From IMG/VR virus record IMGVR_UViG_3300025110_000013, positions 1-61,889 of that record: 61,889 nt of DNA. One strand, given 5' to 3'. Under the pieces are notes generated by a model. The model ran no database searches and was not told the origin of the DNA. It saw only the letters and a program-made list of their open reading frames with translations. Made by a program: the position numbers and the translations under genes. Position 1 is the stretch's first letter. Every line of letters begins with the position of its first letter. Of the stretch, positions 541 through 61,889 are shown one piece after another. This stretch comes from a virus.

Positions 541-1656
541 CTATTTCTGATCCGCTGTTGTTAAGTAGCTGTTCTTGATACACCATTCAGTGAACTTCTT
601 ATTGGTCATCACCAAGTGGTGTTCGGGGTAGTCCTTACTGCACGCACTCTGGGCAAACATCGCCTGTGCCTCTGTATCTAGCCGATCCACATAAGTCATC
701 CACGAGTCAATCAACTCTCGTGTCATTGCCCCTAAGACCTTAAACACAACCATACAAACTGCCGGTGCGTCAGGGGGTACTTTCGCACCGTTAGGATCTG
801 TCTTGATATCCTCCAGTGAGGGTAGCTGATCCGCTAACTGTACAAAGGTATTCAGATCTGCCGCTGCCCTTGCACCGATGGCACCGATGAGTAAGGCAAA
901 GATCGTATCGCTATCCAGTGAGTCTTGTTTCATCAAGATGTCGGATGCCGCGTGTAAAGATCTTGGTGTACAGAACTTCGCTCGCTCTTCCCTTGGATGG
1001 AAGATGTAAGGGTTTTCCGATGGATCTTTAACATCCTCGAAAGACTGAAAGACTTGTGGGTACTCCTTAACAAACCCCAATACCGAGGGGTGTAACTTAT
1101 TAGGGACACCGAAATCAACGATCCATTCTTCCCACGTAGGCTTACGTACCTGTATAGATATAACCGCGTTACGTTTGTGCGCTTCCATCAAGTCACCCAC
1201 GTTCTCTGCACCAAGGTTAGTTGTACAGAACACGATGCTTTCGGGATGTAACTCGTACGTACCGATCTTTCTTTCAAGCATCACTCGACGCAATGCCGAT
1301 TGAACCGCTCGGTTACACTTACCGATCTCATCCAACATTAGGATGATAGGTTGGTTGATGTGCGCTCCCAACTCTTCGTTAGTCAGGTAACGTATGAACT
1401 GACCCTCACCATCGATCATCTGTACGTTCGGGATCATAATGTCCCCTAAGTCCTTAGTCGTACAGTCGAAGTAACATAGCTGGTGCTTGGGTAATCTCTT
1501 ACCTAATACGGGTAACAGTGAGGACTTACCAGTACCCATGTGACCTTCCAGTATAATTGTCCTACCTTGCGTATCTTCAGTGCTTGGCCCTATGTGCTCA
1601 ATGGCATCGGCGCATTGTCGGAACCCTAGTGCGTATTGTGCTTCGTATGATTGCAT
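541..1656 (-). CDS. MoxR-type AAA+ ATPase
   Basis: This 371-residue AAA+ ATPase has a Walker A motif GHMGTGKSS at about residues 38-46 and a Walker B motif ILMLDEIGK at about 104-112. Further on are a sensor-1-like FCTTNLG and an arginine-rich region. The layout and neighbours match the MoxR clade, whose members remodel protein complexes together with VWA-domain partners bearing a MIDAS site. Here the VWA partner is encoded just downstream (248 to 60561 across the ends) and a DUF3150-like protein just upstream. Start ATG at 1656 follows AAAGGAGATCG. The substrate is unknown. It could act on host proteins, on the phage replisome or on virion assembly. The ATPase assignment is firm, the pathway is not. 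Confidence 0.85.
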   Translation of the reverse strand: MQSYEAQYALGFRQCADAIEHIGPSTEDTQGRTIILEGHMGTGKSSLLPVLGKRLPKHQLCYFDCTTKDLGDIMIPNVQMIDGEGQFIRYLTNEELGAHINQPIILMLDEIGKCNRAVQSALRRVMLERKIGTYELHPESIVFCTTNLGAENVGDLMEAHKRNAVISIQVRKPTWEEWIVDFGVPNKLHPSVLGFVKEYPQVFQSFEDVKDPSENPYIFHPREERAKFCTPRSLHAASDILMKQDSLDSDTIFALLIGAIGARAAADLNTFVQLADQLPSLEDIKTDPNGAKVPPDAPAVCMVVFKVLGAMTRELIDSWMTYVDRLDTEAQAMFAQSACSKDYPEHHLVMTNKKFTEWCIKNSYLTTADQK

Positions 1657-13786: not shown

Positions 13787-13854
13787 GTTATAAGATCAGG
13801 TTTGCCCTGACAGTTACATACCGTAGCTGACACTAGCCAAGACAGGAGACAAAC

Positions 13855-14475
13855 ATGGCTGTTACTACCTTTTCAGGCCCAGTTCGCTCGCAGAACGGGT
13901 TCCAACAAATTTCTAAAAACGCTACTACTGGAGCCGTTACGGTTACTAGTGGTGATAAAATGGCAGTTGAAGCCACTTCGGATGCTGGTATTGAAGGCAC
14001 CGCAGGAGTTTATGTAACTCAAGTTAATCGCTTAAAGAGTGATGTTGACACTAACGTAAATGTCGTTAAGACAACAATTATGATTGATCTTACAGGTTTA
14101 CGAGATGGTGGTACTGCTGGTGATATCATCGGTAAAGATGGTGACGGTGTAGCCTTTATTGGACAGGTTACCACTGCTAACCAAGGTACTGTATTCGGTG
14201 TAACCATGACTTGTGTAGAAACTCCTGCTGGCGGTGGCACAGACATAGATCTGTATTCTGCTACTGAAGGCACAGGTGTTAACGACACAGCGATTGGCGA
14301 CTTAACTGAAACTCAGATTATCAACGCTGGTGCTGCTTCCGCAGGGACTATGGTTGCTGGCGGGGACATCGCAGCAGACCAATACTTGTATTTAGTAGGC
14401 CAAGGCACAGGTCATGCTGCTTATACAGCGGGCCGGTTCCTGATTGAGATCACTGGGTACGACGTAGCATCATAA
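13855..14475 (+). CDS. Virion structural protein, 206 aa
   Basis: The protein is beta-rich, with many Gly/Thr/Ala (TTGAVTVTSGDKM, GAASAGTMVAGGD). No enzyme motif is seen. It is separated from the capsid gene by the terminator, has GACAGGAGACAAAC upstream, and is followed 10 bp later by a similar beta-rich gene. It is probably a minor head or decoration protein. The identity is not recognised. Confidence 0.72.
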   Translation: MAVTTFSGPVRSQNGFQQISKNATTGAVTVTSGDKMAVEATSDAGIEGTAGVYVTQVNRLKSDVDTNVNVVKTTIMIDLTGLRDGGTAGDIIGKDGDGVAFIGQVTTANQGTVFGVTMTCVETPAGGGTDIDLYSATEGTGVNDTAIGDLTETQIINAGAASAGTMVAGGDIAADQYLYLVGQGTGHAAYTAGRFLIEITGYDVAS

Positions 14476-37547: not shown

Positions 37548-40500
37548 ATGCCTATATATTCTGTTGCTGGGCCGGAAGGAGAAACTTATAGCATAGAAGG
37601 GCCGGAAGGAGCTACTCGGGATCAAATAGTTGGTGAAATAATAAGGCAGCTACAAGCCCAAGAGAAAGAAGAACAAGATAAACAAAGACAGGAACAATTA
37701 GCTGGTATTAGAGAAAGTAGACGAGGTTCTGTATCTCGCGGTCTTGATATCGGTACAGATCTTATTGCTCAAGCTACAGGCTCAAGCTTAGAAGGTATTG
37801 GTAGCCTTTTAGGACTTGAAGGGCTTGAAGAATATGGTGCTGACGTTGCACTAGAAAACGAAGCTGACATCCAACGTAAGTCACTTTACCAAACCCGTTT
37901 TGATGATATCGAAGGTGTAGGAGACTTTGGCTCTTACTTAGGCGGTATTGCTGCGGAAAGTGCCCCTCAAATGGGTGCTGGCTTAACAGGTGCTGCAATA
38001 GGTACAGCAATACTTCCCGGTCTCGGTACAGTAGTAGGTGGTATAGCCGGTGCTACGCTTGCTAACCTTCCTTTCTTCTATGGTATGAACCGTGAACGCC
38101 AAAAAGAAGCTATTGATTTAGGGATTAAAACTGAAGTAGATGAAGGAGCGGCTTTCTTAACCGCTTTACCACAAGCCTTACTTGATGGTGTTGTAGATAA
38201 GTTATTACTAGGGGCGGGAAAAGGTTTTGGGTTTACTGATAAAGCAATTCGTAGTGGAGGATTGTTTACCAGAGGCGCTAAAGGCATAGGCACAGGTGTA
38301 ATTACTGAAGCTCCTACTGAAGTAGGTCAGCAAATGTTAGAACGTGCTCAAGCTGGGCTATCGTTAGACAGTGATGAAGCAATAGCAGAATACAGAGAAG
38401 CCGCAATTGCAGGTGGTTTATTAGGTGGTGCAGTTAGTGGAACAATTAATGTTGGTCGAGGAAGAATCCAACAAGAAGATACGAATGTTATAGATAAAGA
38501 TGGGGAAGATGCTACACCTATACCCACAAAAACAGCACCTGTAGGGGCAGCAGGGTTAGGTGCGCTTGCGGATGCAGAACAAGGTGACCTTACCGATGCA
38601 GATGTAGCCGAGGCTAGAAAAGAGTTAGATACGGTTAGTCAGGTACGGGATACTGATAAAAAACTAAAAGAAATAGTAACTGATGAAGACGTAGACAAAA
38701 TATTAAGTGACGCGGGTAGAGCAGAAGAAGAAACAGACAGAATAATAAATGCTACTGCGGATGCACAAGAAAAAGCTTTTGAACAAGACTATGGTATTGC
38801 GGAAACCCGCGGTGCTACTGAAACTGGAGACGAAAGGACAGTAGATCCTACAGAAGGTGTGGCAGTAGTAGAAAGGGCAGCAGATGAAGCAGTAGTAGAA
38901 GCAGAAACCCGCGGTGCTACTGACACTGGAGACGTTGAACGCGCAGATACACAAACAGAAGACGAAGCAAGAAGATTAAAAGATGAACAAACAACTGATG
39001 CGTTAGGCGTATTAGCTGAAGAACAAAGTGATTTTACCACTATATTTGCCAAAGTAGACGAAAAGTTAAACAGGCGACCTAAAGTAGTTACTGAGGAAAA
39101 AACTACCGGCGTAGAAACCGGAGCAGAAGTAGAAACCGGAGCAGAAGTAGAAACGGAAACGGAAACGGAAACGGAAACGGAAACGGAAACGGAAACGGAA
39201 ACGGAAACGGAAGTAGAGCCAGCGATAGAACCAGCAATAGAACCAACAGATAGACTTGGAACCATCGCTGAAGCAGCCGAGGCAGTAAAAGAAGAAGCGC
39301 AAGAACAAGTAGATGTAGTAGGTCAGGTAGAAGAACAAGCCATAGAAGACGCGGAGGCGTTAGTAAGGACAAAAGGTTTTAGAGACAAAAAAGCTGAAGA
39401 CTTTACAGACGAAGAGATTAGTACCTTTGCTACGGCAATACCCGCGCTAGAAAGAAATAAGATGTCTATGAAGGAGAAATCTAACTACATAGAAATGGTT
39501 TCTACCAACGACCAAGCGGATTTTACTGCTAGAGAAGGGCGGGAACCGACTAACCAAGAAAGAAATGACATATTTAATAAAGCCAAAAATGAGATAAATA
39601 ACGAACAGAGGTTAATCTCTAAACGATTAAGTAAGCTCAAAAACGATACTAAACCAATACGAACTAAGATCGAAGACGAAGCCGCTGCCATTGAAGCCGC
39701 AAAAGATAAAAAGCCTATAAGAGAAAGACTCGATACTACGACTAAGGTTAAAGAAGCAGAGGTAGGTGCGTTAGAGGCTAGAGAAGAAATAGAAGAAGGT
39801 AAAGTTGAAACCGTTGAAAAGAAGATAGAAGGCCAGAAAAAACCAATAGTTACTTCTAAAAAAGAACAAAAAGCAATACAAAAATTAAATGAAGCAATAG
39901 ACGAAAATTGGGAACAAACCCAATCTGAAGCGTATAAAGCTTATGTAGATAGTGGTAAGCAAAAAGTAAATGCCCCTAAACTACCTTCAAACCTTAGTGA
40001 CTCAGAAGCTGTAACAGAGCTTTTCTTAGGAGAAGGGAAGCTAACCGAGCAAGAACAGGATGCGCTTACTTATTTAACTGCACATCCAACCTTAGAACGT
40101 AATTTATTCGATCTAGCTTACGAGGATGCAGTAGATGCCCCTGCATATCAAGCATCAGAAGACGCTTCCCCTGCGGAAAAAGAATTTTTTGCTGGTAGGG
40201 GCGGGAAACACAGGAAAAATGCTCTTGCTTGGGTTAGAGATAACCTATCTGCTGAAGCAAATATGTGGGTAGTCAACGCAACGAAAAGTGAAATTGCTAG
40301 GCTTGATCGGAATCCGCCCCTTACCGCAGATTATTACGATGTGAATACAAAAGCATCTCCATCGCCTTTCGGGCTTGAAAAATCTGTTAACACGCCACAA
40401 GTATACGATGGTTATTTTAATGCAGCCGAAAACTTGGCTAGGATGAATGTAGCGAATGACCCTAAATTTTTAGAGTGGTTAAATAAACAACCTCAAAAAG

Positions 40501-54705: not shown

Positions 54706-54867
54706 TTAAGATTTAGTGAGTACGATTTTTTCTCTGTGGAAACCCCTACGTATACCCACCGCTTTAGTCATACCAATAGGTACTTGTTTAATCTCCCCTC
54801 CTTTACTCAAGAATTCTGTAACTTTATCGTTAAGTTCTTTACTTTCTTCTGCCTTCGTTTTATTCAT
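54706..54867 (-). CDS. SutA-like RNA polymerase-binding protein, 53 aa
   Basis: The frame is open up to 54978, but the upstream part is a translation of the pentamer repeat. ATG 54867 gives MNKTKAEESKELNDKVTEFL then SKGGEIKQVPIGMTKAVG. The EFLSKGGEIKQV core matches the RNA polymerase-binding segment of Pseudomonas SutA (FLSRGGKVQEI). Phage versions may tune host RNA polymerase. The ribosome binding site is weak (GGTTATTAAAA). It sits between the repeat array and the polymerase gene. Confidence 0.65.
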   Translation of the reverse strand: MNKTKAEESKELNDKVTEFLSKGGEIKQVPIGMTKAVGIRRGFHREKIVLTKS

Positions 54868-54875
54868 TTTTAATA

Positions 54876-55338
54876 ACCACACCTGCCAAACCACACACCA
54901 CCTTGACCCGCCGTAATCCACCTGATCCCAACCCGCCATACCTGCCAAACCCCAACCGAATCTACCGGACCTCTGCATAACTCAACTTGCCGCAACGCAC
55001 CTGACCTGCCTTACCGGAACCCAACAAAACTTAACGTAAACCACCTTAACTGAACATATCCTACCTGCCTTACCACACCCCATCTTGGCCCACCACAACC
55101 CATCTAAATAAACCACACCTGACCTGCCATACCGCATCGTGCCTTATCTCAACATACCCCGAGCCACCATACCTGCCTTACCTTACCTCGCCAAACCTAA
55201 CCTCGCCGCATCCAAACGCATCTGACCATGTCATAACTCGCCTTACCTGCCAAATCATGCCCCAGCCTAACCCACCAAAACCTTACAAATCCAAACCGAC
55301 CTGACCACACCTGCCAAACCAAACCGCATCCAGACCAA
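54876..55338. repeat. Degenerate pentanucleotide array with eight ACCTGCC punctuation marks
   Basis: About 460 bp are strongly strand-biased: the plus strand is rich in C and A and poor in G. Most of it reads as pentamers of CCNNN type (GG at every fifth position on the minus strand). ACCTGCC occurs at 54881, 54940, 55004, 55063, 55122, 55171, 55245 and 55309. The gaps are 59, 64, 59, 59, 49, 74 and 64 bp, all 4 modulo 5, so each copy shifts the pentamer register by one. There are stop-free stretches but no credible gene. See findings. Confidence 0.9.
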
Positions 55339-55344
55339 GCCAAT

Positions 55345-55845
55345 TTATTTTTTAAGAAACAAACTGATTGGTTCCAAGACATCCGATAACTCGGACAAGG
55401 CTTTGTATTTGTTTGTAAATGCCTCTAGCTCCTTCTTTGCGTTGTCAACTAACTGTTGTCTGCCTTCGGGATCTTTCAACATATCAAACGTGTTAAGCCA
55501 GATTCTTTGGGGCTTGCCGCCGCACTCAATCTTTGCTCGTTGAAACAAACGAATCTCTGTAGGTTCGATCTGATCCTCGTTTAACTTCTCAGTCACTACT
55601 ACTAAAGACCTTTTGATATTTTTCTCTGTTATCAATCGGAATTTATTACCCGCTATTTCGTCGTTCCATTCAAAGTCGTTATGCAAAACAGACTTTGGGC
55701 TACGAGCGTGTTCTACTAAAGAACCATCGGGGGCATAACCCCCGTGGCGTTTATTCAGAGCCTCTATTTCCTTTAGAGCAGCGTTCGCATCTGCCTTGAA
55801 AAAAGACCCCTTTCTCCATTTAACTTCGGTGTAAACAGGTTTCAT
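55345..55845 (-). CDS. Hypothetical phage protein, 166 aa
   Basis: EVKWRKGSFFKADANAALKE near the start and HARSPKSVLHNDFEWNDEIA near 46-65 reproduce a pattern seen in unnamed conserved phage proteins (WxxG...ARxPxSxLHxxFEWDD). The rest is helical. Its start overlaps the 55842-56489 gene by 4 bp, so the two likely act together. It ends right at the edge of the pentamer array. Confidence 0.72.
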   Translation of the reverse strand: MKPVYTEVKWRKGSFFKADANAALKEIEALNKRHGGYAPDGSLVEHARSPKSVLHNDFEWNDEIAGNKFRLITEKNIKRSLVVVTEKLNEDQIEPTEIRLFQRAKIECGGKPQRIWLNTFDMLKDPEGRQQLVDNAKKELEAFTNKYKALSELSDVLEPISLFLKK

Positions 55846-56489
55846 GCTGCTGTTTCCGATTCAAAGTCTATGAAGGTTTCCTTCAGTTCAATTTGATGCT
55901 TGAACTCCCTGTCAACCTCAAACCGACCATACTCACCGCCCTTTTCTGGGCGCATTTCACCTAGTCCAACACCGAAACCGGCCCTTTGTATTAGATTTAA
56001 GATGGTATTTTGTGTCAGCGATTGAGAGTCAAACTCCATCCGAACGATCATCGACCAGTTACGAAACTCAGGACGATAACGCAAATCAGTAGAACCCATG
56101 CCTACCCGAACTATGTCTTCCCGCATCAGAGGGTCTTCTGATTCAAAAGCACACAGATTGTTGACCGTATCATCAGGAATAATGAACAGGGACTTTCTAA
56201 GTAAAGTCTTTTCAAGTCCGATGTCTTTGTGAGCAGCATTGATAAAACACCTTTTCAATCCCCCTGCCGGAAACCCAAAGCGTCCATCCTCACAAACATA
56301 AGCAGCATCCCTAAACTCTTGCTCTGGGTCTCTGACATCTCGGTTCTTCACCTTCACCCCTTGGTGCTTGTCCTTCATCATCTTTATTGCTTTCATACTC
56401 CACTTATGCTCGATCAAAGCAGAGATCCCCTTGATGCGCGTGGTCAAAATCGACTGCTGCATCTCTTCAAGTTGTATTACGTTACTCAT
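55842..56489 (-). CDS. Conserved phage protein, possibly RAMP/Cas7-like, 215 aa
   Basis: ATG 56489 with AAGGAAG upstream was chosen. The frame continues to 56636 but without a ribosome binding site. LTTRIKGISALIEHKWS opens, FGFPAGGLKRCFINAA follows near 72-87, then VRVGMGSTDLRYRPEFRNW. The end is GFGVGLGEMRPEKGGEYGRF. A beta strand start, a small PxxxLRxA-type helix and a Gly-rich loop near the end recall RAMP (Cas7-type) folds. This is inference from pattern only. It pairs with the 55345 gene. Confidence 0.7.
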   Translation of the reverse strand: MSNVIQLEEMQQSILTTRIKGISALIEHKWSMKAIKMMKDKHQGVKVKNRDVRDPEQEFRDAAYVCEDGRFGFPAGGLKRCFINAAHKDIGLEKTLLRKSLFIIPDDTVNNLCAFESEDPLMREDIVRVGMGSTDLRYRPEFRNWSMIVRMEFDSQSLTQNTILNLIQRAGFGVGLGEMRPEKGGEYGRFEVDREFKHQIELKETFIDFESETAA

Positions 56490-56521
56490 TCTATCTTCCT
56501 TAGCGGCTATGCCGCGCTTTT

Positions 56522-56956
56522 TTAGTTTAGAAAGTTTCCTTTCTCTAGTCGTTTGATTTCTGCGTCTATATAAAACTTGATCTTCTTGGCATCCCGAAGT
56601 TTGTCGCTGTGCGAAGCGATGCCGTACCGATAGCATGATCTGAACACCTCACCGATCTGTGCGTTCATATCTCTATGTGAGATCAAGTCCTGTAATTCTT
56701 TAGCCCCCTTTGGAAGTTCATAGTAAGCCGCGGTGCTACCGTCCGATAAGGTCTTATCAGGAAGTTCCCAACTCAACCCCGTACCTGCTGGAGGGTGACC
56801 AACAGCAACATTATTGTCACCCGTTGTAATGTCACCACGCGCACTTCTTACTTTGTATACATAAGAAGCTGACACTCCAACCCGCGCCGCTATTTCTTTG
56901 TTAGATTTCTTAGGAGATCGGATTAATGCCTTTGCTATTTTCTCGTACTTATTCAA
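56522..56956 (-). CDS. HTH plus DUF3310-type protein, 144 aa
   Basis: The N-terminal HTH KSNKEIAARVGVSASYVYKV spans about 17-36. The C-terminal 60 residues (YYELPKGAKELQDLISHRDM, then a Lys-rich helix) fit DUF3310, a small phage domain. TTG 56956 follows GGAGCTTGATT. The ATG at 56986 has no ribosome binding site. It could be a regulator; the dyad sites are possible targets. It overlaps the VRR-NUC stop. Confidence 0.7.
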   Translation of the reverse strand: MNKYEKIAKALIRSPKKSNKEIAARVGVSASYVYKVRSARGDITTGDNNVAVGHPPAGTGLSWELPDKTLSDGSTAAYYELPKGAKELQDLISHRDMNAQIGEVFRSCYRYGIASHSDKLRDAKKIKFYIDAEIKRLEKGNFLN

Positions 56957-60560: not shown

Positions 60561-61889
60561 TTAAATGTCTCCACTACTTACGTGTAAGACCTTACCGTTA
60601 TCGGGTGTAGCACCCTCGTTATCCACGATGCACCACAGTACTGGATGATCCCAAGTCCCCCACTCGTACACGTATCCATCAGTGAACACGATACTTGCGT
60701 TGGGTGTGATCTTATTATCCGCAAGATACTTTGGTACACACGTAACATCCGTACCACCCCCACCTGTGGGCTGTGTCTTCTTAGCCACATCATCAAGCTC
60801 ATCCAAGCTATACTTCTCCGCTCGGGCTACTTGTGTATCCCAATACAGAACGTGTAACTCTTTTGGCTTGACCATCTTGGCAATGTCTACCACTTCGGAT
60901 AGTTGCCGCCGCGCTTCCTCAATGCCAATCGAACCCGACATATCTATCTCGACACATAGAACCTCTACTGTCTCGGATATCGCGCTAGGGAAGTAATACC
61001 CTGCTCCTAAATACTTACGGTTAGGGGTCTTGTATGTAGACATATCATTCCCCCGACAATTGGTAACCATGAAGTCACGCATCACATCAAGCCAATTGAC
61101 CTGTGGTTTAAGTAGTGCGTCGAGATTAGTCACATCACCACCCGCACCCGCCTTACCCGCTGTCATACATCCTTGGCGTACCGCTGTATCGATGGCTTTC
61201 TCTAAGTCCTTCTTCTCCTCATCGGACATATCTTGTGCGCCTTCCCAATCATGGTCATCAAACCCTACTGCTGTGTTTTGTGAACCTGTAGTACCGCCGT
61301 CGTCGGGTTGTCCTTCTTGTGGTAAGTCCTCACCACAACCATCGCCACCTTGCCCGGTCCCCGGATCATCTATACGATCCTCATCGTCACATTCTTCACC
61401 ACCCTGACCACCTTCGCCCTCGTTATCATCGTCCTTATCTTCCTGATACAAGATGTCGAACACTTGCTTGGCGTTCATGCCTCGGAACTTCTCATCGACT
61501 AGCCCTTGGTAATCACCCGTAGGCATCTCGGCAAAGGGTACGTTCCAATCGGCCTTACCCTCCTTACGCTTACGCTCCATAATCGATTTGATCTCATCCT
61601 CGATCTCAAGATTAATCACGTAGTCGCACGCCATGTTTGCAATCCTTCCATTCTTCTCGTACAAGACCTTCCAGATTTTAAGGTGTCGGTACACTTTATG
61701 TTTACCCTCATGGATAATTATGTATCGTAGATTCGCATCGCTAATAGCTTCGATCATCTCCACACCGTACTTCTCATCGCGCCCATTGGTACACGCTGTC
61801 GGTATGTTCGGATCAACTTCTCTACTACCGATCATGTATATACCTGTCATTGGCAGATACATCGGCTCTCCCATCACCTTAACAACGGC
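60561..61889 (-). CDS. VWA-domain / putative metallopeptidase protein, main part (N terminus at 1-248)
   Basis: Together with 1-248 this makes a 457-residue protein. The N-terminal domain has HEGKH (HExxH, a zinc-peptidase-like motif as in DUF2201 proteins). An acidic, Gly-rich linker follows (about residues 155-225). The C-terminal VWA-like domain has the MIDAS start DMSGSIG and later FTDGYVYEW. MoxR AAA+ proteins work with such VWA partners, and the ATPase gene is two genes upstream. The window edge cuts the 5' end of this copy. The true start is at 248 in the left copy. Confidence 0.83.
   Translation of the reverse strand, partial: AVVKVMGEPMYLPMTGIYMIGSREVDPNIPTACTNGRDEKYGVEMIEAISDANLRYIIIHEGKHKVYRHLKIWKVLYEKNGRIANMACDYVINLEIEDEIKSIMERKRKEGKADWNVPFAEMPTGDYQGLVDEKFRGMNAKQVFDILYQEDKDDDNEGEGGQGGEECDDEDRIDDPGTGQGGDGCGEDLPQEGQPDDGGTTGSQNTAVGFDDHDWEGAQDMSDEEKKDLEKAIDTAVRQGCMTAGKAGAGGDVTNLDALLKPQVNWLDVMRDFMVTNCRGNDMSTYKTPNRKYLGAGYYFPSAISETVEVLCVEIDMSGSIGIEEARRQLSEVVDIAKMVKPKELHVLYWDTQVARAEKYSLDELDDVAKKTQPTGGGGTDVTCVPKYLADNKITPNASIVFTDGYVYEWGTWDHPVLWCIVDNEGATPDNGKVLHVSSGDI
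61687..61889. repeat. Right copy of 203-bp terminal direct repeat
   Basis: It matches 1-203, with differences at 61689 (G) and 61763 (C). See the left copy. Confidence 0.95.

Follow-up and report, generated by a model that had tools for sequence, protein, structure and literature searches.

What does a tract of non-coding, strand-biased pentamers do in the genome of a phage? The question is raised by IMG/VR virus record IMGVR_UViG_3300025110_000013, analysed over its full 61,889 nucleotides (the window), in which such a tract lies upstream of a SutA-like gene and a DNA polymerase gene (polA). A preliminary description, made from the letters alone, placed the tract at 54876-55338 and proposed a replication origin or primase-loading tract, a Chi-like recombination hotspot, or a G-rich leader RNA that a repeat-reading protein binds. 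We suggest that this tract forms the vrRNA array of a phage-carried VIPR system with seven guides, acting by the mechanism proposed below, and we place the probability of this reading at about 0.93.

The array spans approximately 54870 to 55344, slightly wider than first described, and the minus strand is its RNA sense. In this sense the array begins directly after the stop codon of the gene at 55345-55845 and ends just short of the SutA-like gene's ATG at 54867. Eight ACCTGCC heptamers (54881, 54940, 55004, 55063, 55122, 55171, 55245 and 55309), which read as GGCAGGT joints on the minus strand, are spaced by 59, 64, 59, 59, 49, 74 and 64 nt. As originally claimed, all seven spacings equal 4 modulo 5, for which the naive chance is 0.2^7 or about 1.3e-5. 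The joints delimit seven units of 64, 74, 49, 59, 59, 64 and 59 nt in RNA order, with 9-14 full pentamers between joints (Table 1). Minus-strand G autocorrelation at lag 5, compared with shuffled sequence as the preliminary description had proposed, is 0.345, against a mean of -0.002 (sd 0.045, maximum 0.149) in 1000 dinucleotide-preserving shuffles. The period of five is thus real, and the unit is not simply the CCNNN first read from the plus strand: on the minus strand it is G-K-Y-N-N, i.e., G(G/T)Y-NN. Position 1 is G in 74/80 pentamers, and position 3 is a pyrimidine in 78/80 and never G (0/80). Position 2 is G in 41/80 and T in 25/80, a G share of about half, while positions 4-5 (NN) are close to random. 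Across this clade G1 stands at 92%, Y3 at 97% and G at position 2 at 53%, and NN is near uniform and hypervariable. Each GGCA joint is a single 4-base step and, read from each GGCA, the pentamer phase stays constant with zero slips in any unit, a cleaner pattern than the loosely conserved pentamers originally described. No separate structured 3' tail is visible between units, the constant part being the last pentamer and the GGCA joint alone. Exact repeat-spacer structure, exact tandem repeats and Rfam families are absent from the array, and no Rfam CRISPR repeat family occurs anywhere in the window. Two open frames (54706-54978 and 55197-55382) overlap the array, and the tract might accordingly be read as degenerate coding sequence or as the product of simple-repeat slippage. 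A period of five has no fixed codon phase, however, and G1 and Y3 are kept across 80 pentamers among which exact tandem repeats are absent, so that such an origin is exceedingly improbable.

Table 1. Features of the array and the adjoining genes (positions in the window).
Feature	Position	Strand	Remarks
SutA-RBD small protein gene	54706..54867	-	Pfam PF20661, E 5.8e-9; follows array directly
Closing joint and array end, GGCAGGTGTGGTTATTAA	54870..54887	-	
Guide unit 7, 59 nt	54888..54946	-	decodes to P-loop; variants in L082, L083, L085
Guide unit 6, 64 nt	54947..55010	-	identical in L082
Guide unit 5, 59 nt	55011..55069	-	
Guide unit 4, 59 nt	55070..55128	-	
Guide unit 3, 49 nt	55129..55177	-	identical in L082
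Guide unit 2, 74 nt	55178..55251	-	decodes to P4-type tyrosine integrase tail
Guide unit 1, 64 nt	55252..55315	-	identical in L082 and L083
Array leader, 5 in-phase pentamers ahead of first joint	55316..55344	-	near-identical in 6 related phages
vap (Vipr-accessory) candidate, 166 aa, phrog_15946	55345..55845	-	conserved partner of Vipr gene
Vipr homologue, 215 aa, phrog_4652, RAMP/Cas7-like	55842..56489	-	fold match and profile match to SUSP1 Vipr

The two genes preceding the array link it to a known system, and the preliminary description was on the right track in pointing to their products. VIPR was described in 2026 as a CRISPR-like phage weapon, exemplified by Escherichia phage SUSP1 (PMC13142463, bioRxiv 2026.04.26.720920). 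It consists of a RAMP protein (Vipr), an accessory gene and vrRNAs of 9-16 GGY/NN pentamers, in which the NN letters base-pair with DNA and one target base is passed over, and it is proposed to be older than CRISPR (PMC13142463). The window's Vipr frame was listed as 55842-56636, with a 5' extension that is not conserved. With an AlphaFold2 model of the protein (pLDDT 81.6) as query, the top 50 Foldseek matches in the PDB are all Cas7/RAMP subunits from CRISPR complexes, Csm3 in most cases; the best has E 2.7e-5 and a TM of about 0.5. Its G-rich loop GFGVGLGEMRPEKGGEYGRF is well conserved. SUSP1 is not among the 34 tblastn matches of the window's Vipr. A profile of the Vipr family retrieves the SUSP1 Vipr with E 9.4e-14 (KT454805, 28495-29058), a gene with GGY/NN arrays on both sides, a single one upstream and the others downstream, as published. 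Because the profile finds this gene exactly at the published array locus, membership in VIPR is fixed by homology as well as by likeness. The start of the vap candidate overlaps the Vipr stop, and its product carries the motif LHxxFEWDD. Homologues occur in 34 other loci, nearly all of them retrieved as Vipr relatives. The structure model of the vap candidate (pLDDT 90) has no confident match in the PDB, and neither Pfam nor NCBIfam holds a family for it or for the window's Vipr. No Cas1/Cas2 or other cas genes were seen adjoining the array, and the neighbouring genes tested matched no Cas family save for a below-cutoff cas4-like match of an exonuclease.

The distribution of the array follows the Vipr gene. 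Relatives fetched through polA mostly lack the array, whereas nearly all those fetched through the protein at 55842-56636 carry it. The refutation set out in the preliminary description, absence of the array from related genomes, thus does not hold for relatives picked through the appropriate neighbour gene. Of 96 Vipr-family loci, which reach as low as about 23% identity and come from Proteobacteria, Firmicutes, Actinobacteria, Chloroflexi and others, bacterial genomes included, 92 have a sense-strand array. Among the four remaining loci, two sit on contigs that stop shortly past the gene (L101, L117), one has a weak array score (L152, 4.2), and in L136 an array was looked for beside the Vipr-family gene and none detected. 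Only one of 79 polA-selected control loci scores high (L022). A Vipr-like C terminus closes the sequence ahead of this array, and the locus is therefore no exception. Named phages with a Vipr gene and an adjoining array include Mycobacterium phage Saal, Gordonia phages UmaThurman and ODay, Cyanophage Cy-LDV1 and Pseudomonas phage LESphi2. A DNA element serving as replication origin, primase-loading tract or Chi-like hotspot would suit the strand bias and the proximity to polA. Yet the array tracks Vipr rather than polA across phages, lies on the Vipr sense strand and accompanies Vipr in bacterial genomes from many phyla. The free NN positions moreover hold readable target information (see below), and we give these ideas next to no weight. 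The proposed G-rich RNA with a repeat-reading protein, under selection for GG spacing, pointed in the right direction. With Vipr and array associated in many phyla, the system is readily located.

Several variants were seen among these loci. Other Vipr clades (L104-L116, L022, L119) seem to have different 4-base joints, for example GGCGGTC, GGCGGGC or GGC(A/C)GTC. Extra opposite-strand arrays lie near or beyond the sense array in L177, L166, L111 and L115, giving guides in both directions. Genomes of Caldilineaceae, Dehalococcoidia and Boseongicola (L159-L183) contain at least one Vipr-array locus, some twice per assembly. In Gordonia phage UmaThurman the annotated protein gp40 (L121, 5628-5951) sits on the array and is probably a misannotation.

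The proposed mechanism borrows RNA expression, RNP formation, DNA binding and repression from the published SUSP1 work, and these steps would apply here by analogy. Transcription in the vipr/vap direction, i.e., from the minus strand, would yield a G-rich RNA, which the Vipr homologue is expected to coat. Vipr subunits would hold the GKY positions, one per pentamer, much as Cas7 does on crRNA, with a 5-nt step. The NN of each pentamer would base-pair with the target DNA, one target base being left unread each time, such that about 11-12 pentamers would read about 33 bp of a target gene. We infer that the RNA is processed at the GGCAGGU joints, each unit between them being one guide with the constant last pentamer(s) and the joint as its end. 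The bound Vipr would then repress the target gene.

What the guides might read is clearest in unit 2, whose NN letters are AA GA AT AT CA GC TG GC GA TA TT GA AA AA. With NN taken as the first two codon bases and the skipped base as the wobble position, unit 2 decodes, together with its L085 and L091 alleles, to K(D/E)MM(H/Q)xWADY(F/L). A 20-base search pattern with a one-base skip and codon 6 left free had five exact matches in viral contigs, all five in frame in integrase C-terminal tails; a comparable 18-base pattern, by way of scale, gave a single match there. With one mismatch allowed, 398 Pseudomonadota genomes gave 14 matches, against none for the reversed pattern, and 13 of the 14 carry an MMQxWA(D/N)YL or MIQxWADYL tail. 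Twelve of these loci were read and 11 are in-frame integrase tails, while the remaining two matches show the same peptide within the match. Across both databases, 18 of 19 matches fall in the integrase tail motif. One locus (L195) matches at 22/22 guide bases across pentamers 1-11, with codon 6 counted. The zero-skip control had no match in viral contigs, and the two-skip control had none in 150 genomes in which the one-skip pattern had four. The last two pentamers mismatch the integrase targets, consistent with a constant guide end before the joint. From reading the sequences we take the matched proteins to be P4-type tyrosine integrases. By sequence, guide 2 thus spells the tail of such an integrase, and the matches support the one-base skip for this guide. 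Guide 2 would be directed against competing integrating elements through their P4-type integrase genes. Conservation of the integrase motif means that the matched loci belong to the target family and need not be the rival encountered naturally.

Guide 7 may be aimed at a primase-helicase. Unit 7 decodes to (I/M)GG(H/Q)GTGKGVF, a P-loop, which its variants also give. A strict pattern search had no match, and a relaxed search had eight, including one real P-loop, in a primase-helicase-like protein of a viral contig (L211), which matches 20/22 unit 7 bases in frame. In 120 genomes, four matches with three mismatches were chance-like. The assignment to a primase-helicase P-loop is suggestive. The core of unit 1 had one match with unmatched flanks, which we attribute to chance. 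Searches found no target for unit 5 in 114 genomes, no match under strict conditions for the conserved guide of L083/L085, and none in 150 genomes for the HGGxSTG-like guide of L084. The decoding of the latter and of L091 unit 4 as ParA was by eye and is provisional. None of the guides has a good match in the phage that carries it. Guide searches in the collected loci gave chance-level matches at skips of 0-2, and at a skip of 3 matched the arrays themselves. In a database-free codon-frame likelihood test over 132 guides, about 28 and 23 log units fell on the side of the skip rule, but shuffled guides alone yielded 15 and 16. A simpler version favoured codon positions 1-2, but carried no shuffled-guide control.

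Comparison among relatives indicates how the arrays change. Units 1, 3 and 6 are unchanged in L082 and keep their order; that array lacks units 2, 4 and 5 and has other units inserted. Unit 1 also recurs in L083, and the leader is near-invariant in six phages. The units behave as cassettes that are gained and lost whole with the shared order conserved. The pattern resembles recombination between related arrays more than addition at the leader end. A Vipr-coated RNA or leader of another purpose, such as a sponge or a regulator of the mRNA of the SutA-like and polymerase genes, would let the NN letters drift freely. The array does lie between same-direction genes, just before the SutA-like gene and polA. 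Neutral NN letters would drift, however, whereas some whole units are shared unaltered by different phages and others exchanged, and 18 of the 19 database matches of guide 2 fall in the one protein motif to which it decodes. We consider such a purpose quite unlikely, though less remote than a DNA element or a coding relic.

With the guide array as the preferred reading, we tentatively propose, at somewhat less than even odds, that phages of this clade hold exchangeable, tail-less guide cassettes against conserved protein motifs and not against single rivals. These motifs would include the integrase tail, the P-loop and possibly ParA and HGGxSTG. If so, one guide could cover a whole mobile-element gene family because the wobble base is skipped, and guide alleles would differ at a residue that varies within the target family. 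The results suggest that an environmental phage turns one of its guides on the integrases of rival integrating elements. They lend computational support to the VIPR gapped code in another lineage, independent of the published phages, and reveal arrays evolving by whole-unit gain and loss with conserved order.

Other features of the window deserve brief mention. The SutA-like frame as listed (54706-54978, minus strand) runs into the array; its likely start is the ATG at 54867, giving 53 aa. As far as tested, the gene is a neighbour and not part of the VIPR system, and a phage-borne SutA RNA polymerase-binding domain may merit attention in its own right. A Rfam Mu-gpT-DE RNA (13805-13857, plus strand, 70.4 bits) lies between structural genes, and a perfect GAAACG hexamer repeat of 10.5 copies (39150-39212, plus strand) lies within a frame of 2297 aa. 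The AAA ATPase gene (541-1656, minus strand) and the VWA/DUF2201 gene (60561-61877, minus strand) at the record ends are possibly one MoxR-like pair split by those ends.

Among known systems, TRAP-type RNA-binding rings share the five-nucleotide RNA period, but use triplet GAG/UAG repeats and a ring protein of another fold, and have no guide role. Class 1 CRISPR-Cas (Cas7/Csm3) is closer, with a RAMP protein, a multi-guide array and units gained and lost between relatives. The window differs in having no palindromic repeats or spacers, and in its 5-nt gapped code where CRISPR pairs contiguously. The closest likeness is to VIPR of SUSP1, with which the window shares a RAMP-fold Vipr, a small accessory gene, sense-strand GGY/NN arrays with hypervariable NN, and, as decoded here, a one-base skip at the wobble position and a target in a mobile element. 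In contrast to SUSP1, the window's Vipr is a distant relative, position 2 of the published GGY is relaxed to G or T, and a GGCA step joins the units end to end, without a visible separate structured tail. The VIPR description distinguishes seven types and mentions staggered arrays with overlapping vrRNAs (PMC13142463, fig. S18), and the window array may be one of these staggered arrays.
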